A stretch of 64,000 nt of DNA. Origin: Heterostelium album PN500 (lineage: Eukaryota; Evosea; Eumycetozoa; Acytosteliales; Acytosteliaceae). Shown here piece after piece: positions 1,801-49,107 of this stretch. How positions within the stretch are numbered: position 1 is the first letter of the stretch; the number at the start of each line of letters is the position of its first letter. The notes beneath the pieces are model-generated. The model was not told the origin of the DNA, did not search any database, and saw only the letters and a list, made by a program, of their open reading frames with translations. The stretch is from positions 1,736,001-1,800,000 of the forward strand of contig NW_008805070.1 in NCBI RefSeq assembly GCF_000004825.1. Reading direction: 5' to 3'. Position numbers and translations under genes: made by a program.

Positions 1801-1863
1801 AATTGGTTTACAAATTGATTAGTAAATATGCGCGCATACTGGGTCTAGTTAAATAAAGGGATT

Positions 1864-1934: not shown

Positions 1935-2152
1935 ACTTTGATGATAACAATGATTCAAAAAATTTTTTTAATATTTTAAAAAAACTTAAAACAATATAAA
2001 CATATGGTTCTATAGAAATTTCTTTGGGGAATAAAAGTATTCTTATTGATTTGAAAGGAATGATTATGAACCTAAACTAGTTTAATAACTCTCTAAAATT
2101 TCAAACTTTTCTTTTATAAAAATGTCAAGGTTTAAATTCAATCACTTAGAGA

Positions 2153-5400: not shown

Positions 5401-8400
5401 TAAGAACCAATTGAAAAAGTTGTAGAAATTTGTTTGGAAAATTAATTGCTTCCAAATTCAATTTTGTTTTGAAACGGTTTTGCCAAACATTAAATCTGAC
5501 AAATCAATATCGTTTCATTTTCTGCTCGAGATAGTAGAATCTTTTGGATTTCCAAATACTGTTAACCCGGTTAGTCTTTGCTTTATCCAGCCAGTAAGCT
5601 TTCATCAATATAATTTCCATCTCCTACCCTCTTTGCGACACAGACACCACACACCCTCACACACCACTCTCACACACTCACATATAGACAATATCTAATA
5701 GTACTACTAAATAAGTAGTTCAAAATACTACAATTACTGTTACCGTTGGTTTGCTTTCTTAAAAGCACGTTCATTACACCAAACACCTCCAACATCACAA
5801 CCACTGCCACTAGTACCAGCAGCAGCAACAACAACAACAACTACTACTACAAAACAAACCTTATATATATATTTATTTTTATATAAATATACTTTTATAT
5901 TTATTCCACAAACACCACAAATATCTACATCGCAAGCACCTTTTAAACTTGGTATTAAATTCAAAGGTTATAAGAGTCTCTTATTTCTAGTCCATTTCTA
6001 TTTAATTATTCTAATCGATTCAATTGGATCATTTATTTATACTTATTAGTATCCTATTGGTTTGAAAATACTACAATAGAAGGACAAGAGCAAATAAATA
6101 GCAAAAGCGGTACAAAAGAAATAGAAATCAAACATTTATAAATTATCATTTCTTGAAAAATAATTAAATCAATATCAGTTATAATAATTCCAATTTTATA
6201 ATCAAATTAAAAAAGGTATATTAATCTTTAATTAATCGATCAAAAAATAATAATAATTTAATCTTCACTTTTGTAAACTCTATTTAATATATTTTCATAT
6301 GATTTATATGAAAAAACACACTTTTCTCTCGAATTCGAATTAATATATCTCTATATTATTGTTTCTATTTTAATCAATTTTCAAAAAATAATAATAATAA
6401 TGATAAGAATTTAAATCTTTAAAATCTGAAAGTAGATTTTCAAAACGTAGAATTTATAATAATAGTATAAAAATAGTATAAATTATAATTTTTAATTTCC
6501 TTTTTCAGTAAATAATAATAGAAATTGAAGATATAACACAATAAACCAATCATTAAACAAAAATGATCACTTAAATTTTTTTTACTCTGTTAATACCAAT
6601 CAAATTAATATTTATTATTAGTTTAAACTAAATCTATTTTTAACGAGATTTATCATTGGTACGATTATATTACTATGGATATTTAATTATCTTTTAGTGA
6701 ATTGATAGTCATTTCACCATAACATTTAGAGTATTTCTATTTAAATTGCACAATGATAGTTTACAACAATCTAAATATATAGGAAAACAAAAAAAACAAT
6801 AACAAACAAAACTTATATTGAGTTCATCTACAATCAATCAACCATACACTAAAAATATTTTTTATATTTATAGTCATTTTTATTTATAAAAATACAGATT
6901 GATTTTTTTGTTGTTGTGTTGATGTTGTTCGATTACGATGATGATGCTGTCACTTGTGATTGGGAAAAGAATTTGTTTGGTTTTTTCCTGTTTTATTATA
7001 CATTGTTGTTTTTAAAAGCATATTGTTATTATATATTGTTGTCATCACAATCACAATATTTATTTGTTAAAAAACGAAAACAAATAATAATAAAGACATG
7101 TAAATATAGCAATGGCTATTTAATACTTCCACAATATTTATCATATATCCAGTCAATCAAATTTTTTTTATTTTAACACATATTTTTTTTTGATTCTCCT
7201 CCTACACCCCCTTTTTTCCTAAACCACTATAATATTTTATTATTATATTTACACATTCACTCTCATTCAACTTTATCACTTCTCGAAAACTTGTTTTTGA
7301 TTTGTGAAAACAACGGAATTTATTTTGAATCATCGGAGGTAAGATGGATGTCAATTTTAAAATTCTATTATCTCTCTATCTCTATTTACAATGATTCATT
7401 GTAATAACATTATGTTCACATTTTTTTATTTCAAAATTTTAATAGTAATAAACAATTTTTTATCATTTATTAATAAATGTTAGTGTTTGTTTAGATGAGC
7501 GTGTGTGTGTCGGTGTGTTGATTGTGTGGGAAATTGTTATTACTATCAAACAGAGAAAAAAAAAATTGAATCCCTTCCCTCTATTACTTTTTGGTATACT
7601 TAACAAATGATTGACAAGCTTACCAAAGGAATAGTCACTCACATCATTAAACAGTGAAACCCCCCTGCTCAACAGTGTATCAATATGGTTACAAACACAA
7701 TGGATGTTTTGTATTTTGCATATTGATTTTTTGTTTTTTCTTATATTTTATTTTAATAACAACAACAATATTTATTTCTACCTTCATATTTTTGTTTTGT
7801 TTCATCACGATTTCTGTTTTGAAATTGATTGATGATTTTAATCTTATTATCATAAGAACCCCCAATGGTTTATTTATTTTTGTTTATCACAAGAAATTAT
7901 AAATATCGACAAAACAAACAATCAGATTTTCAATTTTCCAGTGTGTGTGTGAATGTTTTTTGTGTGTTTGATCCACTGGATATAGGTCAATGACCTGAAT
8001 AATCATGGTATAACAATACCATATATATACATTTTTAATAGATATTCCCACGCACGATTCGATCCAACAAAAACTGCAATAACTTTACCAACACCTACAG
8101 CTTCAAACCACAGTACTGTCCTCCTCCTTCCTTCCATAATAATAATTTTTTTACTATTACGAACTCACTGGTTGGTGGTACCACCACTACCACTCAATAA
8201 GAATTAATTAATTACTTCTCATTATCATCTAATTTAAATAATATCATACAAAGTAAATGATAATACTGATATTTTTAACTAATTAATTATATAATTTCAC
8301 CTTTCCTCTCTCCTCCCTCCTGTTTTGTTTGTTCAGACCATGCTCACAAGCTGTCAATTTTATGTATACTTTGTGAGACACGATATACAACCAATGTGTT

Positions 8401-9668
8401 TAGTGTGTGTTTGAGTTTGATTTGAGCACTGATACACTTTGTTTTTAACTAAAACTTTGTTTTACATCCTATATGTCCATTTTTTAATTTTTCTTTTATG
8501 TCGGTTATAGATGTGCTCCTTATCTTTTTTTAATATATATTCCACACACCCACCGTTACCACCCCAATAGTCACCTCCATATTCCACATACACCACACCA
8601 CTACAACTTGATCATCCCATCTACTATTCCCACCCAAGCGATACCCTCTACTATTACCTTCACCTCACAGCACGCCATCTGATATCTATAACAAAACACA
8701 AGTGGACAAAATCTAATATTGTCCTTCTTACAGTCCGACATTGCATGCGTATTCCAATTTGTTATACTGCAGATCAAAACTTGGAGTGTTCATAACTCTC
8801 CCAAATCGTCTATTTATTATTAATCTCGTTGTTATTTAAACCAATTTCCTCTATATTCAAAATCAATCCTTTCTCTTTTCCTTTCTTAGCAAATTGTTGA
8901 TAACGCTTTTTCCATATATGTTTAAGCACTATCAAACAATCTCATCATTATCATAAACCATCTTTTGATTATAGATCAGGTGTCTTGTCTATTCTAGTAA
9001 TATCTAACCAGTATTACCTAATGTTGTTATTTTAAACTCACTATTGACTGCTTCTGCGCTCTATTTTCTACACAATCCTATTTTTCCTAGTCGGCGCACA
9101 ACCATACAATTTTCCTATTGAAACAAAAAAAAAAAAAAAAAACTATTTATAATAATTTTATTTCAAGTAAAAAACAATTTCATTAATTTATCTACAACAT
9201 TTATTATATATAATTATAGATTTATGTGTTGTGTTTATACTTTTTTATTAATTGAATATATATTAATTAACATCAACAACAAACAACACCCTCATCATCA
9301 TCATCAATTCATTTCACTGACCAATCATAACCTGTTACTGACAATTGTACTATAAGAAAAACAAAATAGAGACAAGTTTCTTTCAAACAACTCCTACTTT
9401 AGTTTACGAATCTTCTCTACAAACTTTGGCCAGACTATTCCAGATAATTATTTATTTGAAAATTAATTTCCTCCTAAAATTTAATTTTCTTCCAGATCTT
9501 TCAATTAATCTCTATTTATTTAATCTTTATTTATTTATTCTTATTTTTGGCATAAATATTTTTTGTTGGTGTCCAACATTATTTTAAAAATAATTATCAT
9601 ATTCTTTATATTTATATTTTCAAATAATTTTAAATATTTTCCAATAACATAAATAATCAAAAAAAAAA
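2430..9668. other. 7.2-kb stretch with no recognisable gene
   Basis: No convincing coding unit was found in this very AT-rich stretch. It holds many low-complexity tracts: TA repeats near 2868-2890, GTT/TTG tracts near 3740, 4130-4180 and 4640-4720, an AAC tract near 5320-5360, TG/CA-rich tracts near 4780-4840 and 5640-5690, and a C-rich pyrimidine patch at 8540-8700. A few islands of more balanced composition (about 5480-5620, 7580-7680 and 8700-8800) could be small exons or RNA genes, but no family was recognised. It precedes the methyltransferase at 9669, so part may be its promoter and leader. Confidence 0.5.
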
Positions 9669-10831
9669 ATGGAACCAATGTCAGCGGATTATAATGATAA
9701 TTGTGCAATTCAACAAAATACAATCCAAAAAAATCTCGATGTTCTATTGAAAGGTATCGATTGTTGGTTGACAAATCCATATAACCAATCATTAAAAGAC
9801 ATTGATCTAAGATCATTCAACATATCCGATTTTGGTTGTTCCCATGGTAGAAGTTCACTCCTCCCGATCTCAGTGATCATCACACAAATCAGAAAGAGAA
9901 TGAGTGCTGTCGACATCACCGTTTATCACAACGACCTTCCACAGAATGATTTCAGTCAATTGTTTCTAGAGGTCAATAGTAATCCAGATAGTTACCTAAA
10001 GGTTTCAAATAATATTTTCACAATGGCAGCTGGTCGCTCCTTTTATGACAACGTTTTTCCATCAAATTCCATTCACTTTTCCATTGGATTCAATTGTTTC
10101 CATTGGGCTTCGAAACTCACATCACCCTTTAAAAACACAATATATTATGGTCACACTCAAGATGATAATCTAAAGAAACTTTGGAAAAAAGAAACAGTTT
10201 TAGATTTAATTACAATTCTTTCTGCTCGTGTAAGTTTAACTGAAAAACAAAAAAAAAAAAAAAAATAACATAGTATACTAATTAATAAATTTAGGCAAGA
10301 GAATTGGCTGTTGGAGGAGTTTTTGTTTCAAACTTTCTTACAGATGATAATAATGGTTTCGAAAAGAGTAGAATGTTTTATCACAAGGTAAAGAAGATAT
10401 GGGACTCTCTTGCAACAGATAATTATATTTCAGTGGAGGAAGCCGACAAGATGGTATATCCATTTAGATACTACGGAATGGACGACATTCAAACAGCGTT
10501 GGCCAGTCCAAAGGTGTCGGAGCACGGTTTGCAAATGGTGTTCAGTGAACTCAGATCGACTGCCTGTCCTTTTGAGCCTTTGATCAAGTCGCATGGTGAT
10601 AAATATTTTGCCGAGAAATTATTCCGTGGATTCTGTGCATTCACTGAGCCAACATGGAAAGCAATCATCAAGAAGAACAGCGAAGCCGTATGGCAAGAAT
10701 ACTACAGACGTTTCATCCAATACTTTACCGAAAACCCAAGTCATGGAAATATACCACATAATTATTATATAGTTGTTATGGAGAAGACACTTGTTAATTC
10801 GAGTGACCATCAAGGTAGTGCTTCATGTTAA
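9669..10831 (+). CDS. SABATH-family S-adenosylmethionine methyltransferase
   Basis: Two exons, 9669-10229 and 10295-10831, encode 365 residues. The 65-bp intron starts GTAAGT and ends TTTAG, giving the join ILSAR-ARELAVGG. The fold-defining SAM motif is D-F-G-C-S-H-G at residues 54-60, and the family hallmark H-N-D-L-P-Q-N-D-F is at 87-95. A W-A-S near residue 146 fits the substrate-cap part of the family. The length is normal for SABATH enzymes, which methylate carboxyl groups or ring nitrogens of small molecules in plants and some protists. The substrate cannot be read from the sequence. No targeting signal is seen, so it is probably cytosolic. Confidence 0.85.
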
Positions 10832-30392: not shown

Positions 30393-30541
30393 AAAATAAT
30401 AGATTTCTTTACACATAATATCTAATAAAGTTAAATTAAATTACAAACAACCCATTTTTAATAAAAAAAATAATGGCGAGACACTAACCCTTTATTTTTT
30501 GCAATTAACACTTTGGTTATCTGTTAACCACCTTATTAAAA

Positions 30542-32737
30542 ATGAGTTCAAGTTTATCAAAGTTAATACAATTCGAAATAATAAATAAGATATTAAATAA
30601 TAATAGCGATTGTTATCATAATAATAAATCATTTCAAACATTTCCATCGTTATACCCAACCTTGAAAGAATGTATGTACGATTACTCTATAAATCAAGAG
30701 GAATTCTATAGTTTAAAGAATTTCAAACAGTTGAACTATAATCCGGCGATAATAAAAGAATATTCATTGGTTTCAAAGGATTGGTTTAATTATATTACAA
30801 GTAGAACCGATCGATTGTATACAAAGAAACCAATAGATCTCTCATTTACTCATTCTATATATCAATTCTCCAACATCACACATCTCTATGCTGATTTCTC
30901 ACCAGAACCATCTTGGCTGAAGAACTTTACGAATCTAAAGAGATTGGTCATCAATACAAAAGATGCTAACAGTGTAAAGCAACTAGTTGATCAATTTCCA
31001 TCGATTAAATTAGAGGTGTTTGTAAATCAAGAAGAAAATATAAACGGTGATTTATCATCAATTGGATATGATACCCTGGAATTCGTTCATATCCATGCTT
31101 TCGATATCATTTATAAGCAAATATGTGGATGTTTTGATGGAGATACTGTTGAAGATTACTATAATAACAATCTTAAACCATGGCGTGTAAATTCGATCTA
31201 CCTCGTATTTGTAGATGTGTTCTAAAATTAACATTTTAGAATTATAATAACCAAATCAACTGACACTTCAATAATTTATTAAGAATTCAACTATCACAAT
31301 TCAAACAGTTTATGGACACGATTTCAAATAACTTAAATTAATAATCCAGCTGTTAACAATAATTAAATATATTAGAATAATATCAACATTCAGTGAATCA
31401 ACAAAATATCAATCTACCAAAGTTAACATAAAGAAATAACCAACAAGTTAATCTACAATGAATACCAAACTAGTTAATCAAGAACAGATTTCTGAGATTG
31501 AGCAACTGCACTGGTGAAGAAATCCAACAGTATAAATACCTTGGAAATCCATTATAGAAACTAATTTATTCAACATTATTCAACATTATCAATATTACCA
31601 AATATTATTATTATCTTCAAATTGTAAATTAAATAAATTATTGTCTCTAAATATTATACTGTAAATTATATCTCTAAACTTTATTACATTCATTAAATCT
31701 ATATTCTTCGTACCAAAACTATTCCTAAAGTAATTCCTAATCTTATATCAAAGTTGTAAGTATTATATTTATATGTTTATATGTATATTATAATATGATA
31801 TTATTACCATTGTAAAATAACAAGATGATAGCGAAGGTAGTGACGATTTAATACTCTATGATAAAATCTTCACCATTAAATCACTCAGAAATATTTTCCT
31901 TCCAACCGAATCATTCTATGCCAAAAAATTACAAAGGATTCTATCCAAAGATACTTTAATAGAATCGTTTAGCTGTAGAACACCTCTTGGTTTATTAGAT
32001 TTAGCTGAAGGAGCATTGGACAGTGGTGATGAGGATGATAAGAATAAAATTGGTGAGGATGAAGATGAATGTTGTAAATGTCTTTCAGATGGATATGAGA
32101 ATCATTGGCTGAAAATAAATCAAAACATTGGAAGCAATTCTGTTCTATTCTTGCTGATAATACACGCTTGACATCTTTTGAGTTGAAAAACTTTTGTAGT
32201 TCCTTCAATCAAGATATTTTCAATACTAGACGATCATATTCACATATGTTAAGACCAAAGATAATAGAATCAACATCATTGGAGCTCAGTAAAGCGTTGT
32301 CTATCAATACTACATTGACATCATTGACAATCACCTGTCAAGTAATATCGGATTCATTCTTTCAAACTTTGTCGCACTCGAACCAAACAATAAGTCATCT
32401 CTCACTCACAGAGTGTGGTATAGATCAACTTGTTCAAATTGCCAATCTATTGGAATCAAACAAAACAATCAGACGACTTGGAATTGCTTTTCATCGAAAT
32501 TATTGCCAACAAATGATAGGTAATAATACACCAAGCTCTTTTAGGATTAAAATGGATAAAGACATTGAATTATTCTCACTTTCATTACTCAAAAACAAAA
32601 CAATTTCAAGATTGGACATTCAAGAATATCAACCCTATACTATTAGATCTCATATTGAGTACCTATTTCAACGCAATCTTCAATCTCTATTCACCAAACA
32701 AATTAATAATACTCAGAGTGTTTTATATTTTAAATAA
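30542..32737 (+). pseudogene. F-box/LRR-like family member interrupted by a solo LTR
   Basis: The first part (30542-31217) encodes about 225 residues closely related to the whole paralogs at 33002 and 35461, starting MSSSLSKLIQFEIINK and holding the F-box-like Y-S-L-V-S-K-D-W-F-N-Y-I. Similarity stops at an inserted 605-bp element and resumes right after it at 31823-32737 with the K-S-L-R-N-I segment, the acidic hinge and the leucine-rich repeats ending at a shared stop. The later part also shows a one-base frame change near 32100 relative to the paralogs. The gene should not make the full protein. It is the first of three tandem copies. Confidence 0.8.
31218..31822. mobile_element. Solo LTR of an LTR retrotransposon (fossil)
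   Basis: The 605-bp insert starts TGTT and ends AACA, the usual TG...CA ends of long terminal repeats, and is flanked by the 5-bp direct repeat AGATG (31213-31217 and 31823-31827). Host-gene similarity stops at one copy of the repeat and starts again at the other. No internal coding part is present, so it is a solo LTR left by LTR-LTR recombination. A TATAAATA box lies near 31531. The clean ends and target repeat suggest a fairly young insertion. The retroelement family cannot be named. Confidence 0.8.
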
Positions 32738-33001
32738 TAATTAAAAATATAAATCAATTTTATTTTGTGTTTTCTAAATATTTATTATTATCTTTTTTTC
32801 AAGAAGATAGATATCAAAATTCCCTGAAAATAAGACTATCAAAGTATTAAAAAGAGTTTTTATTTTTCTTTTTATTCACTCAAAATTTAATGGTGGGAAT
32901 TTTGTTTAAGGTCATTTAAAAAAACAATTCAACAATTGTTTGACTCTCTCATTGAATGTCATTTTAATTAAAATCGCTAAATATTAAATAATCTATTAAA
33001 A

Positions 33002-34690
33002 ATGTTTACAAGTTTTTCTATATTATTACAACATAAAATTTTAGAGAGGTTAATAAATTATAATAGCGATTGTTATTATAATCATAGAACATTTCAAGAG
33101 TTACCATCATTCTATCCAACTTTAAAAGAGTATGCCTATGATTATACTGATGGTCAAGAGGTATTCGATAGTTTAGAGAATTTCAAGCAGTTGAATTATA
33201 ATCGATCAATAATAGAATATTCATTGGTTTCAAAGGAATGGTTTAATTATATCTCAAAGAGAACCGATCGATTCTATGCAGAGGAACCAATCGATCTCTC
33301 ATTGACTCGATCAATCTACCAATTCTCCAACATCACACATCTTTATGCTGATTTCTCACCAGAACCATCTTGGCTCAAGAACTTTTTGAATCTAAAGAGA
33401 TTGGTTATCAATACAGATGATGTTAATCGTGTAAAGCAACTCGTAGAACAATTTCCATCAATCAAATTAGAGGTGTTTGTAAAAGCAGATAGTGAAGAGT
33501 CACATACAAACGGTGATTTATCATCAATTGGTTATGATACCCTGGAATTCGTACATCTCTATGTAATGAATATATATTCCGATGTAGATCATGATAATCT
33601 TAAATGTTACTATAAAAAGTATGTCAAACCATGGCGTACAAATTCAATCTATTTTGTCTACGATGAAGGCGGTCACGATGGTATAGTACCTGAAACTCAA
33701 TATGGTTACCTCTTCGAGAAAGTAAAATCACTCAGAAACATTATCATTCCATGCGACCCATTCTTGGCCTTTTTATTACGATTCGCTGTTACCAATGATA
33801 CTCTCATCGATTCATTCAAATGTAGTACTCCACTTGGTATATTGGATGCATTAAATCGATCGACTCTCACGAACAGTGAAGATGAAGAAGAAGCTGAAGA
33901 TGAAGCTGAAGATAAAGATGAAGGTAAAGCAGTTGAAGTTAAATATGGAGATGAAGATGAAGAGGAATATAGTCATGCTGAATATATCGATTTACTAAAG
34001 AATTATAAATTTTATAGCTATTATTGTCGTTGTTTTCAATATGATACAGAGGCGGATACATTGGTGCTAAGTAAATTAACACATTGGAAACGATTCTGTT
34101 TGATGCTTGGAAGTAACACACGATTAAAGTATTTGGAGTTGAAAAACTATTGTAAATCCTTTAATAATATTAGAAGTCGAGAGGATGATTATCATGGTCA
34201 TTTTCTACTTCCAAAGTCAATCGAATCAACATCATTGGCACTCTGTGAAGCTTTGTCAGTCAATACTACATTAACATCATTGACAATCTCATGTCAAGTA
34301 CTCTCGGATTCATTCTTTCAAACATTACCACACTCGAACCAAACAATCAATCATCTCTCACTCACTGAATGTGGTATCGATCAACTTGTTCAACTCACCA
34401 ATCTATTGGAATCAAACAAATCAATCAAACGACTTGGTATCACATTTCATAAGAGATACTATCAAGAAATTATGAGAAAACAACTGGCCACCACTAAAAG
34501 TGAAACTGATAAAGCCATTGAATCATTCTCACTCTCATTACTCAACAACAAAACAATCACAAGATTGGACATCAAAGAATATCAACCCTATACTATTAGA
34601 TCTCATATTGAAAGCCTATTCAATGGTAAAGATCGATTCATATCCACTAAATTCATAAACCAAAAAACCAATTCCTTGTTTTTTAAATAA
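33002..34690 (+). CDS. F-box-like / leucine-rich repeat family protein (copy 2)
   Basis: A single exon encodes 562 residues. The N-terminal part has an F-box-like segment (E-Y-S-L-V-S-K-E-W-F-N-Y-I, about 78-90), followed by W-L-K-N-F-x-N-L-K-R-L-V type leucine-rich stretches. An acidic Glu/Asp hinge at about 297-325 differs in length between copies. Further ribonuclease-inhibitor-like repeats (N-T-T-L-T-S-L-T-I-S, I-N-H-L-S-L-T-E-C, I-K-R-L-G-I) fill the last third. Such proteins often act as substrate adaptors of ubiquitin ligases; that role is inferred. It is very similar to the copy at 35461, including 3' flank, so the pair arose by recent tandem duplication. Confidence 0.8.
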   Translation: MFTSFSILLQHKILERLINYNSDCYYNHRTFQELPSFYPTLKEYAYDYTDGQEVFDSLENFKQLNYNRSIIEYSLVSKEWFNYISKRTDRFYAEEPIDLSLTRSIYQFSNITHLYADFSPEPSWLKNFLNLKRLVINTDDVNRVKQLVEQFPSIKLEVFVKADSEESHTNGDLSSIGYDTLEFVHLYVMNIYSDVDHDNLKCYYKKYVKPWRTNSIYFVYDEGGHDGIVPETQYGYLFEKVKSLRNIIIPCDPFLAFLLRFAVTNDTLIDSFKCSTPLGILDALNRSTLTNSEDEEEAEDEAEDKDEGKAVEVKYGDEDEEEYSHAEYIDLLKNYKFYSYYCRCFQYDTEADTLVLSKLTHWKRFCLMLGSNTRLKYLELKNYCKSFNNIRSREDDYHGHFLLPKSIESTSLALCEALSVNTTLTSLTISCQVLSDSFFQTLPHSNQTINHLSLTECGIDQLVQLTNLLESNKSIKRLGITFHKRYYQEIMRKQLATTKSETDKAIESFSLSLLNNKTITRLDIKEYQPYTIRSHIESLFNGKDRFISTKFINQKTNSLFFK

Positions 34691-35460
34691 AAATAAATAT
34701 ATATTATATATTGTTGCTAATTAATTAATTTAAATGTTATTCCTTACATTATATTTATGTTTTTAAATTAAAAAAAAAAGAGATAAAAAAAACATCTAAC
34801 AATGATTGATTTAATTAAATGTTGAGGCTCATAAATCTAATGATTCTTCTCCACTATAACAGACAATAACTAAATGACGCCTCCATGAAGGTATTGTAGA
34901 GATCCTGATTGATTTGGGGGCATGGCGGTTTCAAATCTCTTGATTCAAACCCCTTCAACAGTTGTACTGCGTTTCTCCAGACACTTTTGGTAAACTGTTT
35001 GCACTACACAATGTCTCTACTATCCATATTAAAGCCATCTCTCTGAATGGTTTACCTAGAGGAATAACAACTCATCAAATACTGTTAATCGTGTACTGAC
35101 CCATCGGTTAACTAGTGTCGACCACCCATACTTAAATAGAAAACAATTGTAAAGAATAAAGTTTTAATTTGTCCAATCGATTACCTACTAAATCATACTC
35201 TAATTCTAAATAACAAATAATTATTATTTGATTAAAAAAATAAATAGTATAAAAAATTTAAAATTTAAAAAGAAGTATTTTTGAAGGTGAAATTTTAAAA
35301 TGATGAAGCGCGCAAATTTGATGGTTTCATAACGTTCATATAAAAAAAAAAATTCAATTTATTTTGACCTGAAAAGGCTCCTTCTCGCTCACTGTAGTGT
35401 GTCATTTTAATTATCACAAAACACAGTTATCATTTCTCTAGATTAATTAATCTATTAAAA
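34691..35460. other. Intergenic between tandem paralogs
   Basis: The first 120 bp after the stop match the DNA after the next copy (37114-37230), so the duplication unit included the 3' flank. A block of more balanced composition at about 34850-35120 has no match in the other intergenic gap and no recognised coding content; it may be an old insertion. The rest is AT-rich. Confidence 0.4.
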
Positions 35461-37113
35461 ATGTTTACAAGTTTATCTATATTATTACAATATGAAATAA
35501 TAAATAAGTTATTAAATTATAATAGCGATTGCTATTGTAATCGTAGAACATTTCAAGAGTTACCATCGTTCTATCCAACTTTGAAAGAGTATGCCTATGA
35601 TTATACTGATGGTCAAGAGGTATTCGATAGTTTAGAGAATTTCAAGCAGTTGAATTATAATCGATCAATAATAGAATATTCATTGGTTTCAAAGGAATGG
35701 TTTAATTATATCTCAAAGAGAACCGATCGATTCTATGCAACTCTACAAAACGATCTCTCATTGACTCTATCAATCTACCAATTCTCCAACATCACACATC
35801 TCTATGCTGATTTCTTACCTGAATCATCTTGGCTTAAGAACTTTACGAATCTAAAGAGATTGATTATCAATACAGATGATGTTAATCGTGTAAAACAACT
35901 CGTAGAACAATTTCCATCGATCAAATTAGAGGTGTTTGTAAAAGCAGATAGTGAAGAGTCACATATAAACGGTGATTTATCATCAATTGGTTATGATACT
36001 TTGGAATTCGTACATCTCTATGTGGTGAATATAGATTGCGCTGTAGATCATGATAATATTGATCGTTACTATAAAAAGTATGTCGAACCATGGCGTACAA
36101 ATTCAATCTATTTTGTCTACGATGAAGGTCATCACGATGGTATAGTACCAGATATTGAATATGGTTACCTCTTCAAAGAAGTGAAATCACTCAGAAACAT
36201 TATCATTCCAAGCGATCGATTCTTGGCCTTTTTACTAAAATACGCTGTTATCAATGATACTCTCATCGACTCATTCAAATGTAGTACTCCACTTGGTATA
36301 TTGGATGCATTAGATCGATCGACTCTTAATAACAGTGAAGATGAAGATGAAGCTGATGAGGAAAATGAAGATGAAGATAAAGATGAAGATGAATTTGATC
36401 ATGAAGAATATTGCGACATACGAGACAATGGCTTTTTCTATGACTACTATTGTCGTTGTTTTCAAGATGATACAGAGGCGGAGACATTGGTAGTAAGTAA
36501 ATTAAAACATTGGAAACGATTCTGTTTGATGCTTGGAAGTAACACACGATTAAAGTATTTGGAGTTGAAAAACTATTGTAAATCCTTTAATAATATTAGA
36601 AGTCGAGAGGATGATTATCATGGTCATTTTCTACTTCCAAAGTCAATCGAATCAACTTCATTGGCACTCTGTGAAGCTTTGTCAGTCAATACTACATTAA
36701 CATCATTGACAATCTCATGTCAAGTACTCTCGGATTCATTCTATCAAACATTGTCACACTCGAATCAAACAATCAATCATCTCTCACTCACTGAATGTGG
36801 TGTCGATCAACTTGTTCAACTCACCAATCTATTGGAATCAAACAAATCACTCAAACGTCTTGGTATCACATTTCATAAGAGATACTATCAAGAAATTATG
36901 AGCAAACAACTAGACACTAAATGTGAAACTGATAAAGCCATTGAATCGTTCTCACTCTCATTACTCAACAACAAAACAATTACAAGATTGGACATCAAAG
37001 AATATCAACCCTATACTATTAAAACTCGTATTGAAAGCCTATTCAATGGTAAAGATCGATTCATATCCACTAAATTCATAAACCAAAAAACCAATTCCTT
37101 GTTTTTTAAATAA
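35461..37113 (+). CDS. F-box-like / leucine-rich repeat family protein (copy 3)
   Basis: A single exon encodes 550 residues, differing from the copy at 33002 mainly by substitutions and a shorter acidic hinge (about 295-315). It shares the same start (MFTS followed by L-S-I-L-L-Q), the F-box-like E-Y-S-L-V-S-K-E-W-F segment, the leucine-rich stretches and the end T-N-S-L-F-F-K. Large blocks such as 36530-36700 are almost identical to 34110-34280, pointing to recent duplication or gene conversion. No signal peptide or membrane segment is present. Function in protein turnover is inferred only from the F-box-like and LRR layout. Confidence 0.8.
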   Translation: MFTSLSILLQYEIINKLLNYNSDCYCNRRTFQELPSFYPTLKEYAYDYTDGQEVFDSLENFKQLNYNRSIIEYSLVSKEWFNYISKRTDRFYATLQNDLSLTLSIYQFSNITHLYADFLPESSWLKNFTNLKRLIINTDDVNRVKQLVEQFPSIKLEVFVKADSEESHINGDLSSIGYDTLEFVHLYVVNIDCAVDHDNIDRYYKKYVEPWRTNSIYFVYDEGHHDGIVPDIEYGYLFKEVKSLRNIIIPSDRFLAFLLKYAVINDTLIDSFKCSTPLGILDALDRSTLNNSEDEDEADEENEDEDKDEDEFDHEEYCDIRDNGFFYDYYCRCFQDDTEAETLVVSKLKHWKRFCLMLGSNTRLKYLELKNYCKSFNNIRSREDDYHGHFLLPKSIESTSLALCEALSVNTTLTSLTISCQVLSDSFYQTLSHSNQTINHLSLTECGVDQLVQLTNLLESNKSLKRLGITFHKRYYQEIMSKQLDTKCETDKAIESFSLSLLNNKTITRLDIKEYQPYTIKTRIESLFNGKDRFISTKFINQKTNSLFFK

Positions 37114-37567
37114 AAATAAAATTATATATTATATATATTATATATTGTTGTTAAATTAATTAATTTAAATGCTATTCCTTACATTATATTTATGTTTTTA
37201 AATTAAAAAAATAGATAAAAAACATGTAACAATTTAATGGATCTTCTACTAGAACAGACAATGATCGCCTCTGGTATGGAATTTGAATTTAAGTAGCAAT
37301 CATTGACTATCAGTAAGCAGTGTGATAAGCTTAATCTAAAATGAATTAGAGCATATTCAAGCTCATTAAAAATTTAGTCATCATTATAATCAAAAGATCC
37401 TATAATATTTAAAAAAAATATAAAATCATTCTGTTATCTGATGAAAGAAAACTAAAAAAATAAGTCATAAGATTTTAAAAATTGTCTTATGTTAAAAAAT
37501 TTAACAATTTTATAGAATTTAACAATTTTGTTTCTTGAACCTTTATTTTAACTTTTAATTTAATTAA
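37114..37567. other. Intergenic, duplicated 3' flank then AT-rich
   Basis: The first part copies the flank found at 34691-34800. The rest is AT-rich leader for the B-box gene. No gene was recognised. Confidence 0.35.
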
Positions 37568-39412
37568 ATGACAACCAATTGCGCAAATCATTCAAAGACA
37601 TTCAAGTATATTTGTCATAAATGTAATATTCTGATGTGTTCAGTATGCACAGTAGATCATTGCAAAAAACGATCAGATCATTCCAATCATTGTGAACATA
37701 TCAATCAGATTAAACAATCATTAAATAATATATTTAATAATGAGATAATAATAGATAGTGCTATTGATAATAATGATAAAGATAATAGTGAACCTGTAAA
37801 GAAGAAACAGAGAATAAATGATTATAAAAACAAAAACAATAACAATAACAATAACAATAACAATAATAATAACAATAACAAAAACAATAAAGAAGAAAAT
37901 GAAGAAACAGAGCTATCACAAACAATTAAATCGATTTGGGAATCATTAAAATCATCGACATCTCAATATCAATCATTAACAACAACAGAGAATGAGATTA
38001 AACAACACTTTGAACAATTACATCAATATCTAATCATTGAAGAACATAAATTAAAGAAAGATATTATCAATGATAAAGATACAATCATAAATCAAATAGA
38101 TAATAATATAAATCATTTCAAATATTTAGTTAATATTATAAATATAAATAATAAATTAAATAATAATAATAGTAATAGTAATAATAGTGATAAAAAGAGT
38201 TATGATAGTGAATCAATGATATTAGATACAACAGATACAAAAGATTTATATTCTCCAACAACAATAATTCAATCAATAATATCGAGTTCAACATTAGAAT
38301 CATTCATCTCTGATAATAATCAAACATTGTTCAATGAACATCATGATCTATTCAATATCGATGAACTTATCAAACAACACAACAATGATTCATCACCATT
38401 ATTATTGGATATCATTCATAAATACAACAATCAATTCAACAAAACATCAGAAATCATTAATAATAATAATAATAATAACGAATCATTTTATCAACTATCA
38501 ATCAAACAACATGATTTCAATCAATTGAATTCAATGATCAAACAATCAATCAAACTTGTTAAAGTTACAACTCGATCATCAGTATTAAAAACAAACAGCA
38601 ACGATAATAAATCATCATATATTTTCACAACACATCAATCGAGAGGAGCAACACTGATTAACCTATCAAACAACAATTCAATCGAAGAGTTTGATATTTA
38701 TTATGGTTTTTGTGATACATTCCAATCGATTATTGCCATTGGTGAATATATCTATGTATTTGGGGGTGAGAAAGAAAACGAATGGATGAAATTCTCAATC
38801 AAATCGAAATCAGTTGAACATATTGGTTATATGAATGGTATAGATGGCGATTGTTATATATCAGTTTGCTATGATGGTCAAGATCATATCTATTTGGTTA
38901 ATGGTTATAAAATAAAGAATAGAATTGATCGATTCAACATCAAGACAGAGAAATTCGAAAGATATCATGGATTATCTAATGAAAACGGTAATCAAATATC
39001 ATCAATGATCTTCAAAGGTTCATTATATTCACTATTATACGAAAAGGAGAGGCTATTTCAATTCGATTTGACAAATCGAAAGATAACCTATCACCAAATT
39101 GATATTAGACCATACACAGCATGTCATGATAACAATGGAAATTTCTACACCATTAATGTGGACAATAGCAAATTGATCAAATACAATGTTGAAAACAAAC
39201 AATCCATCGCTCTAAAGCCTGTTCCTGCCCAATATCGTGATGCTTTTTTGATATATCATCGAGAATCATCAACCTCAAGTTTTCTCTATTCAATAGGTGG
39301 TCGGGGCTGTAATAATTACAAATATTCAATCAAAGACAATCAATGGGAACTATTCTTTGAAGATGATAAATTTAAAAGAGCATGGTGTGCATCTACATCA
39401 ATAATATTTTAG
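37568..39412 (+). CDS. B-box zinc-finger protein with kelch-like C-terminus (copy 1)
   Basis: A single exon encodes 614 residues. A B-box zinc finger opens the protein: C5, H8, C16, C19, C24, C27 and later His residues. Asn-rich linkers and a probable coiled coil (E-N-E-I-K-Q-H-F-E-Q-L, about 138-170) follow. The C-terminal 280 residues contain kelch-like beta blades such as Y-I-Y-V-F-G-G and F-L-Y-S-I-G-G-R-G, probably a partial propeller. This architecture is a large family in dictyostelids; its molecular role is not known. Decayed relatives lie at 1-1330 and around 56640-60180. No export signal is seen. Confidence 0.85.
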   Translation: MTTNCANHSKTFKYICHKCNILMCSVCTVDHCKKRSDHSNHCEHINQIKQSLNNIFNNEIIIDSAIDNNDKDNSEPVKKKQRINDYKNKNNNNNNNNNNNNNNNKNNKEENEETELSQTIKSIWESLKSSTSQYQSLTTTENEIKQHFEQLHQYLIIEEHKLKKDIINDKDTIINQIDNNINHFKYLVNIININNKLNNNNSNSNNSDKKSYDSESMILDTTDTKDLYSPTTIIQSIISSSTLESFISDNNQTLFNEHHDLFNIDELIKQHNNDSSPLLLDIIHKYNNQFNKTSEIINNNNNNNESFYQLSIKQHDFNQLNSMIKQSIKLVKVTTRSSVLKTNSNDNKSSYIFTTHQSRGATLINLSNNNSIEEFDIYYGFCDTFQSIIAIGEYIYVFGGEKENEWMKFSIKSKSVEHIGYMNGIDGDCYISVCYDGQDHIYLVNGYKIKNRIDRFNIKTEKFERYHGLSNENGNQISSMIFKGSLYSLLYEKERLFQFDLTNRKITYHQIDIRPYTACHDNNGNFYTINVDNSKLIKYNVENKQSIALKPVPAQYRDAFLIYHRESSTSSFLYSIGGRGCNNYKYSIKDNQWELFFEDDKFKRAWCASTSIIF

Positions 39413-42212: not shown

Positions 42213-43352
42213 ATAAATAAATAAATATATAAATACAATTGAACGAATGAATCTAGTTAGATTAACAAACGAAAAAAAAAAAGAAAATAATTTTGTTATT
42301 GGGTTTGGATAGTAGACTCTCTTAATTAATTTCTTTTAAAAATTGTTTGGTTTTTTTTTTTTTTTTCAAGTATCTGTATTATTAATTTTTGGTATTGGGT
42401 AAATGGGTTTGAAACTTGGAATGGGGAGGTTGATAGAATGATAGATTCGATTAGGATAGACACCTAAAAATACTTTATCCTAAATTAAAACTTTCGAAAA
42501 CTGTTTGAATATGTATTTGTGATGGATCAATTTATTTTAATGACGAAAAGCATGAAACAGTGTCTTGATTTAAATTAGATCATTAAATTCCAATCTAGAT
42601 TTATACATTAAAATAACCATTTTTTAAAAAAAAAATTGTTTTTTTTCAATATATTAAATTAAATTTAAAGATGTCATAATAATATTTTGAAAATGGATGA
42701 AAACAAAAAATATGCATTCCTGGCCAAAATAAAAGGGTTTAGAAATGATCACATGATTGTGAGTGGGGGTGGTTAAAAAACCAATCTCATTCCTCCTTGT
42801 ACCTTATAATGTCAAAACAAAAAAAAAAACAATTTTGTCGAATTCATCTCTATCTCTCATACCAAAAATAAAAATTCAAAAAATAAAAAAAAATATATTT
42901 TTACCCAAAAACAAATTTTCATCTCAGCCAATGAGAAAAATGGATATTTCAATCAGCTGAAAAATGGCTTTTATTGGGTTTTCAATTAAGAAATTATTAT
43001 ATCTTTTATTGAATTTTTTTTAATTTTTTTTTTGATTTTTCTGTTCAAGCTCTGTTCATCATCAAAAAGCAAGCGTGCAACCTTTGATCTCCATTCAATT
43101 CAGTTGTACACTAAACAATATAATTTCATATGTAAGAATTAAACAATATCAATCAATAATAAACCTCTTTGCTATAGTCAACTTACAGTAAAGAGAGATT
43201 GAATAGAACAATATTATAATATTCAAAAAAGTTTACATTCAACATATTCTAACTTGCAATAATTTATTTTTTTAAAATATCATTTTAGAAATTAAAAAAC
43301 CCCTTGTTGTAATCTATTTTTTTTTAAATAAAAAACCAAAAACTATATAATA
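42213..43352. promoter_or_regulatory. Intergenic, profilin upstream region
   Basis: About 1.1 kb of AT-rich DNA with long T and A runs precedes profilin. No coding exon or RNA gene was recognised. The last 40 bases are A-rich, the usual context of a dictyostelid start codon. Confidence 0.4.
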
Positions 43353-43734
43353 ATGTCTGCCTGGCAACCATATATCGATAACAACCTCGTTGGAGCTGGT
43401 TTCGCTAACGCCCAAATCATTGGTTTGGACGGTTCCAACTGGGCCGCCTCAAAGGGATTCTCCTTGAAGAACGGTGAAGAGAAGGCTTTGATCGGTGGTT
43501 TCACCAACCCAGCCAACGTTGTTTCCACTGGTGTTGTCCTCAACGGTACCAAGTACTACGTCCTCAAGTCAGACCCACGTTCCATCTACGGTAAGCAAGG
43601 TACCGGGGGTGTGGTGTGTGTGAAAACTGGAAAAACTGTTATCATCGGTGTCTACAACGAGAAATTTGCAACCAGGTGCTGCTGCCTCCGTCGTCGAGAA
43701 GCTCGCTGATTACTTGATCGATCAAGGTTATTAA
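43353..43734 (+). CDS. pfn: Profilin, with an apparent one-base frame change near its end
   Basis: The gene reads M-S-A-W-Q-P-Y-I-D-N-N-L then G-F-T-N-P-A-N-V and Y-Y-V-L-K-S-D-P-R-S-I-Y-G-K-Q-G, the actin-monomer and poly-proline binding profilin fold. After G-V-Y-N-E-K the frame changes: taken literally the protein ends at 43709 after 118 residues with an unrelated tail. One T in the run near 43673 is extra relative to the inverted partial copy at 48910-49086. In that other frame the DNA reads LQPGAAASVVEKLADYLIDQ and stops at 43734, exactly the usual 126-residue length. High GC at third positions marks a highly expressed gene. Either the base is an assembly error or this copy is damaged. 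Confidence 0.85.
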
Positions 43735-43965
43735 ATTATATAAAAATAAAGTAATATATATAAAATCATCCTAAAAAAACAAAACAAAAAATTCAAATTT
43801 TTTTTGTGTTTCTTAAAAAAAGTCAAGTCATAATTAAGAATAACTTACTAATGATATGGATAAACTATGAAAAGACAGATTTATTATCTACCATTGTCTT
43901 TTGGATATCAGATTGATAAGCAGTTCGTCTTTCTATGAAGCAGATAATGAAGATGAAATCAACAC
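43557..43965 (+). repeat. Inverted repeat arm 1 (profilin 3' half plus flank)
   Basis: These 409 bases recur inverted at 48679-49086 (408 bases). They look almost identical throughout, including non-coding flank; the one clear difference is the extra T inside profilin. The arm runs from the Y-V-L-K-S-D codons through the stop and 230 bp of 3' flank. Similarity ends abruptly at both edges. The near identity of non-coding DNA means the duplication is recent or kept alike by gene conversion. Confidence 0.85.
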
Positions 43966-44296
43966 CATGGATATTCAATGCGGCAATGCATTGTAAACTC
44001 TACTTTCAATGAAAACTAAAAATAAATAAAAGAACAAATTTGTTTTTTTCATTAATTAATATGCACAAACAATGCAGTGATCGAACAAATATGTTAAAAA
44101 AAAATAAAAAATTTTTACAATACCGTGATTTTTCAATATATAATATTAATATGGTCCTCATGTGTGTATGGTTGTTGATAAAAGTAGTTTTATTGAAGTA
44201 AACAGATAAATACACTTACGATTTCAACATTGTTTCTCATTATATATCCTTGTGGTAAAAAAACGCAATCATATTTATTAAATCTTAAAACATTCT

Positions 44297-47200
44297 TTAT
44301 TTGTTATTCTTAATAAACTCTCTTCTCGATTTTTTGTTTGCCTTGAAATGTTGTAAACAGAGTTTGCCAATTTCTAAATAAACTGGAATATATTCATTAC
44401 ATCTTTCATTCTTATCACTGATGTATTGACATTTACGTTTGAAGAGTTCAGATTCTTCAGAAACTCCATCAGAGATTGCACAACTACTTGAACAATACCA
44501 TTTATCAACACTTCAACATCCTTCTTCAAGTATACAATTCGGATGCCACAAATAGAGCAGTTAGGTTGAGTAGTCTGTTGCTTGGGAACTTTTGACTTGG
44601 CTGGGGGAGCATTAGTAATTTGCTGATCAGAGCTTTCGGTACTATAGTTCCTGTCAACATCAAACATTTCAACATGATGTAATCGTTGAATACTAAAAAA
44701 AAAAAAAGTTATATTAATAAATATAATATAAAATGCTTCAACAATTTTTTTTTTCCTTACCTTTCAACAATATCTCTATGTTCTTTTGTTGAAGTTGTAC
44801 TGGATTTGGAATTGAGAGTTTGGTTGTGGTAATGTTTAACTAGAATTTCAATGCCATCTTCTAATTTGTTACCACGGTTATTGTAGCTCAAAAGTTTGGC
44901 AACTTCTTTGATCATTGTTGCTAAATTAGGACCCATCACCCAAGAATGTACAATATCAACCAACTCTGGATTCTGATATGAAATGACATTCAAGATATTC
45001 AATCGGGATCTTGGATTACTGTCGTCTTTCTCTTTCTTGGTCTTATTGGGAGATTGTTCAACAGTTGAAGCTGGTCTCTTTATGCCAGAGCCAACGACAT
45101 TCTTGGAGTCATCTGTGCCGAGAATGGCCTTTGCAGACTTGCCTAATTTGTAGGGACTCATAATATATCCAGTGTATTCATGGAATAATCGAGAATTTTT
45201 CAAAGCTTCGAATAGAAATATGAATGATTTTGAATTGACAATAAATGGAAACCACAGAGAGGGTTGGAATGGTGCGAAAGAATTACCACTTTGATAATTT
45301 CAATAATTTGATCTAATTGACACCCATACAATGTTCTTTGATGCATATGATTGTTTGGACCAATGCATCAGAGAAATTTGATTTGATTGATAAAAGATAA
45401 TCAGTCGGGGGAAAGAGACCAACTATCATACAATTAAGAGCATTTGCAAATTTAATAATGATTTCATTTCTAGTCAATCGATCCGCTCCAGTAAATGTCA
45501 TGATCCAAGGCTGAATCTTGTGGGGGTTGATATTGTATTCTTTGAGAGTACTCTTCACTAGATCATCCATTTCAACATTTAATCTATGCACTTATTTGTT
45601 TTGATAAACAAATCTCTTTGAATAAATTAATAACATCTTGACAAATAAATTTAAAGAAACTAAATAAATAATAGTTAATATTAATTGAATTTAATTTTGT
45701 ATATTAATAATAAATTTGTATATATATTTAACACAACCACAAACTATATAATCAATCTACTATATATATATATCATATAACTATAATCATATATACTTTT
45801 ATCACTCACCACACACTCCCGCTCTCTCAATATAATATAACACATACACAATAAAACATGTCATACTCACATATATATATGCCACATGCCGATAAAGGCT
45901 ATTCTCACCACCTTGGTAAGTATATCTTTTTTTCTTTTTCTTTTTCATCTTCACTCTCTTCTTCATCATCACTTTCTTCTTCAATAGTTACTTTGATACC
46001 ATGATCATTATCGTATAGCTTCTCTTCAACCTTTTCATTTTGTTTTTCAATGGTTGATTCATCGATTGCCATCTTTAGCAATGGATTGGCACTTTGAGAA
46101 AAGCATACAACTGCCAGCATGCAATTAGGAAGCTTAAATAAGAAACCTTGACTTGATCATTGATTGAAGTACCACTATTAGGTTTACCATTAATCAAAGG
46201 ACGTGACATTCTTGAATAGATCGCTACATTATTAATATCACCTAGTGTATGAGAGAAAAATGATTTAATCTCTTTGCGATTGTGGACTTTGGTAATCCAA
46301 TGATTTGTGGTGTGATGTCGTTTCTATATAATCCATATTCACTTGATAGAGCAAAGTATCTTGATCCGGTTTGTTGGACTTCCGTTTCAAACTCTTCAAA
46401 GGTCATTGATAGTCTAATGAAACAATGTTTTGAATCCAAAGTCAACAATATATTTACCAGACTTTATGTTGGGAGTTTTCAGGTTATGGATATACAGAAT
46501 AATTCCCAATTCCCGGAAATATCCAAATATTTCAATAATCTCTGATGTATTTCTTGAGATTCGGTCGATACCAGAGACAATGATAAGATCTCTACAGTCC
46601 ATATTTTGTATAAGTATCTGAATTTGTCTTCGAAAATTGAAAGGGAACCAGAATGAACTGACGACCTCCAAAATGAAACGCAACTTGTATGTAACTACTT
46701 CAAGATCTGATGTTGGGAGAATGCTTTCTTTGTCATTGATTGATTAAATTAATAAATATAGAGCATCTCTTGTATCATGAATTGACAATAAACCATCAAA
46801 GTTGGATGGAGAGAAGAATTGATATTGTATATCAATGTAGCCTGGTGTTGGAAGATTCTTTTTCTTAAAGTACATTAACACCATCATCTGTGTATTCCTA
46901 GGAACCTTGGAATAGAGTATTTCCCTTTTTGAACCATTCAATTTTTTTCCATTACCCTTAACTCCATTGAGATCATCGATTCTACTTTTTTGGCCAAGCA
47001 AAAGAACTTGAGATAAGCAATAGTCTCTGGGCCTGCCCAATTAAAACTATCGATAAACTTAATTGTAATTTCATCACTTGGGAACTTTAGCCTGTTATTC
47101 TCAACCTTACAAAGATGGAAAATGTAAGGGAATAGAATGAACTCGATACCAACAGGATGAGGAGTGTAGGAGAATGCATGTGGGAACATGAAAAGGTAAT

Positions 47201-47309
47201 TGAGTACTGCTAAATAATGTAGATTATTGAGTTCAGTATATGATTGGAAAGAAGGTGCCAACTTGTCATACTCTTTGAATTCTGTGGTTGGTAATCCTAT
47301 TTTAACCTG

Positions 47310-47347
<38 letters not shown>

Positions 47348-48470
47348 TATTACTATTGTTATTGTTATTGTTGTTTGTTGTTGTTGTTGTTGTTGTTGTT
47401 GTATTTGGTTTGGTTATATTATTTAACAACTTGGTTTGATCGGGAAATGCAGGTACTTTCTTGATTGATACATTCCATGGGAAATCCTTTGATGGATTGA
47501 CTCCGGCTTTCTTTACAGCTTCGGGAACCTTAGGTACTAGCACTAAACGATCTTTTGAATTTTCAAGTTCCAGGGGTAACGGCACAATAATCTTTGATTC
47601 AGAACCATTTGACTGTTTGTCTCCAGCATCAGTACCTTTGGGTAATGGAACAAGAATATTTGACACAATAACATTTGACCGTTTGATACCAGCATCAGTA
47701 CCTTTGGGTAATGGCACAAGAATATTTGATCCTAAACCATTGGCCTGCTTGACAACAGCTTCAGGGCCTTTGGGTAATGACACAGGAATATTTGATCTAG
47801 AACAATTGGACTGCTTGACACCAGCTTCAGGACCTTTGGGTAATGACACGAGAATATTTGATCCACTCTCATTAGATGAAATATCACCATCAGAGCAATC
47901 CCTCTCATCAGACGAACTATCTTGAACTGTAGTTGTAGCTATCTGTGACTTTTGAATATCATTCTTGATGATTGTTTGAATTTCACCTAAGGCTTTGACC
48001 TGTTCATCATTCTCGGCTAGAATTATATACTTTATTCTCTGAAAACAAACGAATATCGCTTCTGTTTTGAAATATGACACAATTTCAGGAAGGTTGTCTT
48101 GGACAATATCCGGATTTTCAAGAAGTCTAAACTTTAAATTGTTCAATTTAGCTATTTTTTAAAAAGAAATTTTATTTAATTTTAAAAAAAAAATTTAAAA
48201 AAAAGTTTCTATTTTTAATCTTACCTTTGCCAATATTTTTGACAAGAATTACATTTGGGAGAGGATCCAATTTGAATCTTTGGAATTCATTATGAGTGAC
48301 TATGGCTAGGAACTGATAATCATGCAACTCTTGTACAAGATAGTCGAGTAAATTTGCATGTTTATACAGGGAAGTGGCGAGTCTAATAGTCTCTCTGGTC
48401 TTAACCCTTTGGACCAAATTGTTAACAATAGGTAATAGGTTTTGTTTATCCGTAATATTTATTATATTTG
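44297..48470 (-). pseudogene. Interrupted serine-recombinase-like locus filling the inverted-repeat spacer
   Basis: One minus-strand locus fills almost all DNA between the arms. An intron with GTAAGA and AAATAG ends lies near 48150-48220. The order is: N-terminal helical part; about five tandem copies of a unit with S-N-I-L-V-P-L-P-K-G (47490-47880); a Thr/Asn tract; a conserved-looking block; DRISRN plus E-L-G-I-I-L-Y-I-H (46549-46566 and on); I-Y-S-R-M-S followed by G-T-S-I-N-D-Q (46150-46221); an acidic stretch; DRLTRN (45466-45483); and a C-terminal Cys/His cluster (44297-44620). Y-x-R-x-S with a nucleophilic Ser, S-I-x-D-Q and D-R-x-S/T-R are hallmarks of serine recombinases. The frame is interrupted several times and no clear ATG was found. 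Two motif sets suggest two tandem modules. A plain transposon gene is my preferred reading. Confidence 0.55.
47490..47880 (-). repeat. Tandem protein-coding repeat, about five units
   Basis: Within the recombinase-like locus the unit reads roughly S-N-I-L-V-P-L-P-K-G followed by P-E-A or T-D-A, then G-V-K-Q-S-N-G, about 25-28 residues each. Later units are less alike. The frame is clean across the array. Confidence 0.75.
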
Positions 48471-48678
48471 TAAATTAATAAGAACTGTTGATTTAATCAC
48501 AATCATATCACCTATTTTTATATCAATTCAATTGTCAATCATAGTTGAATAAAATAAAATATAATTCAATTTTCATATTGTCAAACTCAGTAGATTTTAT
48601 TTGTTTCTTTTGATTTAGATAATCTATTGTCAATCATGTAAAACACTTTTCTTAAATTTCAATTTGAAAAATGTCAAT

Positions 48679-49086
48679 GTGTTGATTTCATCTTCATTAT
48701 CTGCTTCATAGAAAGACGAACTGCTTATCAATCTGATATCCAAAAGACAATGGTAGATAATAAATCTGTCTTTTCATAGTTTATCCATATCATTAGTAAG
48801 TTATTCTTAATTATGACTTGACTTTTTTTAAGAAACACAAAAAAAATTTGAATTTTTTGTTTTGTTTTTTTAGGATGATTTTATATATATTACTTTATTT
48901 TTATATAATTTAATAACCTTGATCGATCAAGTAATCAGCGAGCTTCTCGACGACGGAGGCAGCAGCACCTGGTTGCAATTTCTCGTTGTAGACACCGATG
49001 ATAACAGTTTTTCCAGTTTTCACACACACCACACCCCCGGTACCTTGCTTACCGTAGATGGAACGTGGGTCTGACTTGAGGACGTA
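48679..49086 (-). repeat. Inverted repeat arm 2 with truncated profilin copy
   Basis: The minus strand repeats arm 1 (43557-43965). The profilin part (49086-48910) runs from Y-V-L-K-S-D to the stop and lacks the extra T of arm 1, so its frame is the expected one. The first half of profilin is absent. At 49087-49107 arm 2 is joined to another short internal profilin piece (the I-I-G-V-Y codons), so the copy has a scrambled edge. As it stands it has no start or promoter and is a truncated host-gene copy. Confidence 0.85.
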
Positions 49087-49107
49087 GACACCGATGATAA
49101 CAGTATT

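Follow-up and report, generated by a model that had tools for sequence, protein, structure and literature searches.

Analysis of a 64,000-nucleotide stretch of the Heterostelium album PN500 genome (contig NW_008805070.1, positions 1,736,001 to 1,800,000 of the forward strand; hereafter the window) uncovered, between window positions 43966 and 48678 on the minus strand, the decayed remains of a serine-recombinase-like gene. The locus belongs to a dispersed family of intron-bearing genes with models of ~1150-1400 amino acids (aa), one copy of which, on another contig, has kept an open frame containing two sets of catalytic residues. Serine recombinases are, to our knowledge, a rare enzyme kind in eukaryotes. 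We tentatively read the window locus as the relic of an old low-copy mobile element that encoded a two-in-one serine recombinase.

Motif order and homology to serine recombinases

In a six-frame translation of the whole window, the motifs YSRMS, GTSINDQ, DRISRN and DRLTRN, which a preliminary description of this DNA had reported from the minus strand, each occur once, at the place reported, all on that strand and in the same frame. In the direction of the gene their order is DRISRN, YSRMS, GTSINDQ and DRLTRN (Table 1). The Arg/Ser motif of serine recombinases lies before DRxxR; DRISRN therefore marks the end of a first module, and YSRMS with GTSINDQ the start of a second one that DRLTRN completes, so that DRISRN and YSRMS do not form one catalytic set. 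A loose DRxxR pattern is found twice inside 43966-48678 versus never in the other 59 kb of the window; a loose Arg/Ser pattern is common (7 inside, 29 outside). The two modules are referred to as SR1 and SR2, in gene order.

Homology to serine recombinases, which the preliminary description had proposed from motifs, is borne out for SR1 by profile searches. Window positions 46414-46743 match the Pfam family PF00239 (Resolvase) with an E-value (E) of 5.3e-6 and 27.0 bits (cut-off 23.3), and a genome-wide search with this profile returned three places above the cut-off, including the window. SR1 of the intact copy on contig C27 scores 28.2 bits, and that of the C12 copy 23.6 bits in the genome search and 22.1 bits in a protein scan. 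Among NCBIfam families, the window piece matches the Mpi-type invertase with E 4.1e-4, far under the cut-off of that family. The pieces with YSRMS (46075-46323) and DRLTRN (45313-45591) matched no Pfam family at E 1, and the remaining scanned window pieces matched none above its cut-off. A profile made from four copies retrieved 16 sequences from the PDB at E ≤ 1, 14 of which are serine recombinases; the best is gamma-delta resolvase (2.6e-4), and Sin, TP901-1 integrase and Tn3 resolvase are also present, the remaining two being RNase H2 subunit B (0.45). In this alignment the SR1 Arg and DRxxR coincide with the Arg 45 region and DRxxR of gamma-delta resolvase. SR1 residues that do not vary across the four copies are the Arg and Ser of an RES motif, another Ser, one Arg and the two Arg of DRxxR; RES and DRxxR occur together in the C3, C12 and C27 copies.

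SR2, recognised by motifs alone, would be a second serine-recombinase module. Of the 84 gap-free columns in an alignment of four copies, eight are invariant, and five of these are R, S, D, R and R in the right order; since the alignment leans on these same motifs, any chance estimate for their invariance is flattering. One SR2 alignment also has an invariant Gln in SINDQ, which another does not; the DRxxR of SR2 is also seen in the window and in the C3:605k fragment. The order of the motifs and the conservation of their residues support the two tandem modules suggested earlier as a property of the family, although the second lacks a profile match of its own above cut-off.

A dispersed gene family with one intact copy

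Searches of the genome (32.9 Mb, 39 contigs) recovered relatives, largely fragments, at ~12 places spread over 7 contigs; such place counts are lower bounds. Labels such as C3, C12 and C27 denote contigs, C9 being the one that carries the window, and L0xx denotes excised loci. The figure of ~12 depends on how neighbours are counted: three C37 pieces count as one place, as do two pieces at C9:1487-1489k, whereas C3:605k/608k and C27:1429k/1435k count as two places each. Rows dropped before counting were 10 of 19 that matched a low-complexity, Asn-rich query stretch (judged by eye), 1 of 12 (C6:407006) and, in another search, 4 of 8 that were short. Several dispersed copies, many of them decayed, are what a transposable element would leave.

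Five copies (window, C3, C12, C27 and C37) retain a large part of the gene. In the fuller ones an N-terminal region precedes SR1, which is complete as a serine-recombinase module; SR2 follows, and behind it come a helical region and the Cys-rich end. In the C27, C37 and C3 models several hundred residues stand ahead of SR1. Identity of the serine-recombinase (SR) exon to that of C3 is 36% for C37, 32% for C12 and 22% for C27. Gene-finder models of the broken copies (window, C12, C3) bridge lesions with false introns and do not count here as true proteins; together with the C37 model, that of C3 was nevertheless used as a tblastn query on the window.

The C27 frame is open through five exons (1156 aa) with no base altered and contains both sets of catalytic residues. 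Its third exon (84 bp), coding for the strand that precedes the second DRxxR, had been omitted by the gene finder (giving 1128 aa) and was added by hand; two alternative acceptors for this exon give 1145 and 1144 aa. Compared with adjoining degenerate fragments, C27 shows an omega of 0.27 in the SR exon (134 codon pairs, Nei-Gojobori) and of 0.43 in the N-terminal exon (245 codon pairs, from fragments that overlap in the query), and this copy is apparently kept under selection. For C12 versus C9:1488k omega is 1.17 in the Cys-rich exon (143 codon pairs, a few counted twice), and for a pair of C37 fragments 0.5 (59 codon pairs).

The other copies are less complete. The C37 model (1379 aa) stops early in the Cys-rich part, and its intron at L032 7443-7515 may conceal a frame change. 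In C3 no first exon could be recognised, and the frame is lost directly behind DRISR in SR2. C12 is without the N-terminal region and has a 36-bp perfect inverted repeat around an SR2 piece that reads on in the other strand (L031:3649-3778), this piece having apparently been flipped.

Decay of the window copy and the profilin arms

The window copy was mapped by tblastn with the C37 and C3 models and by its open reading frames (ORFs; Table 1). About 156 codons are gone (C37 residues 499-654; 143 residues by the C3 model), including the SR1 Arg/Ser motif, and a second loss of ~40 codons (C37 residues 1047-1086) lies between 45328 and 45287. At least five frame changes are recognised, at ~47004-47028, ~46413, ~46260, 46135-46129, 45328-45287 (with the second loss) and ~44509-44533, and neither C37 nor C3 has an intron at the points of lesion. 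With these deletions and frame changes and an in-frame TAA, the window copy is, on its reading frames, a pseudogene unable to make the protein of the family. The domestication that had been considered for it is hence discounted; the intact C27 copy could be domesticated. A 66-nt unit is repeated in tandem within the N-terminal region of the pseudogene (window 47574-47903).

The locus lies between inverted arms derived from the profilin gene, which are near-identical as described before, with lengths of 410 and 409 bp rather than 408 bp. Their sole difference is one indel base. In the longer profilin copy (window 43353-43709) the extra base, either a true mutation or a sequence error, removes the normal C-terminal frame; the right-arm copy keeps the normal end frame and is without the first part of the gene. 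The genome has 10 profilin matches, 8 of them away from the arms. Since the arms hardly differ and the gene between them is strongly decayed, either the inverted copy arose after the decay or conversion has maintained the likeness of the arms. On the same disparity the arms were rejected as element ends, and their role as bounds of a recombinase element is not supported; to judge from the sequence, they look like a younger rearrangement.

On contig C14 (~1000028-1000250; L064:1364-1585), two stretches that are separate in the window, A and B, are joined end to end. Stretch A corresponds to window 49303-49172, outside the right arm, and stretch B to window 43895-43979. B stands at the inner end of both arms (window 43895-43979 and 48679-48749), its left match extending 14 bp beyond the end of the arm; no copies of A or B were reported besides those of C14 and the window. 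The short inverted B pair may have come first, outward copying from B then making the profilin arms.

An arm difference of a single base, which breaks the frame of the longer profilin copy, is also what a misjoin of the inverted arms, or of the entire 4.7-kb piece between them, might leave in an assembly. We consider such an artefact very unlikely, as two long deletions and several frame changes are no single-base errors and relatives occur on six other contigs.

Table 1 Features of the window copy and its arms (window coordinates), exons of the intact copy and places of the family in the genome
Feature	Position	Strand	Basis
Left arm: 3' part of profilin gene and 3' flank	43556..43965	+	Differs from right arm by a single additional base; Pfam Profilin at 43332-43706
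Cys-rich end, frame change at ~44509-44533	44315..44691	-	tblastn, C3 residues 1268-1390 in two frames; zf-C3Hc3H E 0.0027, under cut-off
Helical region, after frame change and loss of C37 residues 1047-1086	44760..45287	-	tblastn, C37 residues 1087-1270
SR2 second half: DRLTRN 45466-45483	45328..45576	-	Within tblastn match 45328-45654, C37 residues 925-1046
SR2 continued past frame change	45959..46129	-	tblastn, C3 residues 784-844
SR2 first half: YSRMS 46204-46218, GTSINDQ 46153-46173	46135..46260	-	tblastn, C3 and C37 models
SR1 second half: FRRQ (46624-46656 stretch), DRISRN 46549-46566	46414..46743	-	PF00239 E 5.3e-6; tblastn
In-frame TAA beside junction lacking C37 residues 499-654 (including SR1 Arg/Ser motif)	46744..46746	-	ORFs and tblastn
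N-terminal region continued in other frame (change at ~47004-47028)	46753..47028	-	tblastn, C37 residues 414-498
N-terminal region, open	47004..48113	-	tblastn, C37 residues 89-419
First exon-like piece of pseudogene	48226..48444	-	tblastn, C37 model residues 8-82
Right arm, inverted: profilin gene, C-terminal part, with its 3' flank	48679..49087	-	Self-comparison, Pfam
C27 exons	L035 2815-4020, 4094-5249, 5330-5413, 5483-6164, 6249-6591		Model with third exon placed by hand
Family places on C3	804.9k, 605k, 608k		Genome search
Family place on C4	1443.9k		Genome search
Family places on C9	Window; 1486.9-1489.6k		Genome search
Family places on C12	454-457k; 699.6k		Genome search
Family place on C24	1218k		Genome search
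Family places on C27	1434-1438k; 1429k		Genome search
Family place on C37	4.5-10.9k		Genome search

Genes and repeats flanking the copies

At eight places a recognised gene has its 3' end facing the copy; the other places, where no gene was recognised, were left out of the count. These neighbours encode profilin, cofilin, EF-2, ribosomal L15, S-adenosylmethionine synthetase, formin, S-adenosylhomocysteine hydrolase and a proline-rich protein (no Pfam match). A nearby 3' end is often to be expected by itself in a gene-dense genome. As a proxy for expression we took the fraction of C as opposed to T at two-fold third positions. On this measure seven of the eight neighbours (all except formin) exceed the 95th percentile of a background of 39 other ORFs, compared with 2 of these 39 (Fisher p 4.4e-6); the background is small and consists partly of bare ORFs. 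Adding a LANC-like gene near C27:1429k (0.10) gives 7/9 (p 1.6e-5), and adding also the gene on the far side of C12 (0.42) gives 7/10 (p 4.4e-5).

Direct repeats surround two of the copies. In C12, a 123-128-bp stretch of the cofilin 3' flank recurs ~5 kb away at 96% identity (L031:2416-2538 and 7556-7683), around the copy; in C27, ~900-bp repeats of 87% identity, part of a wider repeat, lie on both sides of the intact gene (L035:966-1862 and 9070-9953). The window also contains a Kelch-motif gene (37568-39409), with look-alike fragments beside both C12 (L031:6145-6604) and C9:1488k (L041:2141-2888), so these places share more than the recombinase gene.

Targeting of tRNA genes was considered and rejected: 11 of 12 loci have no tRNA gene, and a tRNA-Phe gene is found at L052. 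A tRNA-Met gene lies at window 1862-1935. Elsewhere in the window, positions 30509-37233 hold an array of related genes with stretches 78-91% alike, including two ORFs of ~570 aa.

Comparison with known serine recombinases

Small serine recombinases are single bacterial modules with a C-terminal DNA-binding domain. Among them, gamma-delta and Tn3 resolvase and Sin, the best PDB matches, resemble the family in that their Arg 45 region and DRxxR can be aligned with SR1; they differ as bacterial, single-module proteins from the large, intron-bearing protein with a second module described here. Excerpts of PMC6188088 describe gamma-delta resolvase as one module with a C-terminal DNA-binding domain.

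Large serine recombinases and phage integrases of the TP901-1 and XisF type are alike in that the TP901-1 catalytic domain was matched, and in the long region and Cys-rich end that follow the catalytic part; C27 matches XisF weakly (E 0.012). Whereas such enzymes have an N-terminal catalytic domain followed by recombinase and zinc-ribbon domains, the family has two modules, SR1 is not N-terminal, and Pfam scans of the pieces gave neither of these two domain families above cut-off. Distant bacterial serine recombinases did turn up in tblastn searches: the C37 SR exon retrieved five phage records at E 0.7-0.8, of which four carry an integrase or recombinase annotation and one carries none, and the C27 SR exon 45 plasmid records; among the eight listed, seven are annotated 'recombinase family protein' and one is unannotated (E 0.006-0.5).

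The IS607-type TnpA proteins, found together with Fanzor2 in eukaryotes and giant viruses, are likewise serine recombinases in eukaryotic genomes (PMC3627910, in excerpt), and are described as small single-module proteins with an N-terminal DNA-binding domain (PMC6188088, in excerpt). In contrast to this short architecture with an N-terminal MerR-like domain and a single catalytic domain, the family proteins are ~1150-1400 aa long and carry two motif sets; no IS607 match was present among the listed Pfam, NCBIfam and PDB results, and Pfam scans of the pieces gave no MerR-type family. Related serine recombinase genes within a nuclear genome are also reported for Saccharomyces kluyveri, where excerpts of PMC2715888 describe six IS607-like genes with dN/dS ~0.19 and loss of the catalytic serine in two; these differ in having ~250 aa and one module, and are 24-31% identical to prokaryotic proteins over their length.

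Viral contigs (86 pattern matches) and prokaryote genome contigs (8) contained no relative by tblastn, weak evidence of absence since only two (viral) and one (prokaryote) peptide patterns were used. Together with the introns of the family and the low SR exon identities between copies, this speaks against the recent capture that had been suggested. Neither a two-module serine recombinase nor such a dictyostelid family was found in the open-licence literature, among the titles and abstract openings listed.

Mobile element or host gene

Several observations weigh against a mobile element with a two-module recombinase. SR1 of C37 reads ERxxR, with Glu replacing the Asp of DRxxR; the SR2 piece of C37 matches Resolvase with only E 0.14, under the cut-off, and an SR2 profile has no PDB match at E 10; the comparison of SR1 and SR2 profiles covers just 28 columns at a probability of 13%; and a single-sequence structure model of the window piece is unusable, with a predicted local distance difference test score (pLDDT) of 43. 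In self-comparisons the copies showed no shared element ends, terminal repeats or target duplications; C12:455k and C9:1488k also agree in a repeat next to them, as segmental duplication would give; and the codon-bias pattern of the neighbours, which involves few genes, was noticed prior to testing.

The weak SR1-SR2 comparison and the lack of an above-cut-off match for SR2 would suit a protein in which only SR1 is a serine recombinase and SR2 is a degenerate or unrelated stretch with similar motifs by chance, perhaps a structural partner, and an Arg matching resolvase Arg 45, present in SR1, was not spotted in SR2 by eye. This is unlikely in our estimate, given the five motif residues in the right order among the eight invariant SR2 columns and the recurrence of its DRxxR in further copies.

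The missing common ends and the shared repeat, as well as the intact C27 frame with its omega below 1, are compatible with a host gene family that involves no mobile element: a serine recombinase would have been taken over long ago, C27 would be a working gene, and the other copies would be pseudogenes spread by segmental duplication or rearrangement. We rate this as possible; against it stand the scatter over ~12 places, mostly of fragments, with more than one place on C3, C12 and C27 besides C9, and the skew of the neighbours to codon-biased genes. Of three possible natures, mobile element, host gene or one that turned into the other, we tentatively favour the first, an old element of which a single copy survives.

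Such an element would have used its two-module protein to move, settling mostly 3' of strongly expressed genes. Because serine recombinases act as dimers at each DNA site, one chain carrying both modules would already amount to a dimer. Were both modules catalytic, SR2 being the more conjectural in this respect, two chains would form a tetramer that cuts both strands via Ser-DNA links, swaps the ends and rejoins them, and the choice of DNA would fall to the Cys-rich end, perhaps also to the N-terminal region. With most copies broken, the C27 copy, apparently preserved by selection, may now serve the cell.

Beyond the window, the value of the finding lies in a eukaryotic serine-recombinase-like gene with two modules that is intact and apparently kept by selection. 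The eukaryotic serine recombinases described in PMC3627910 and PMC2715888 (in excerpt) are small IS607-type proteins. If this holds, a large, intron-bearing, two-module eukaryotic protein would be a natural single-chain recombinase, raising a testable question on the role of a serine recombinase in the amoeba nucleus. A fuller picture, which we regard as rather doubtful, is that of a new eukaryotic element or recruited recombinase whose fused modules form a natural single-chain dimer, are both catalytic in the intact copy, and have as their target the 3' flanks of strongly expressed genes, which would offer a safe haven where the genome is compact. Dictyostelid retroelements target tRNA genes (PMC5006619, in excerpt); should the preference for 3' flanks next to codon-biased genes hold up, it would add a further safe-haven strategy in compact genomes to tRNA-gene targeting.

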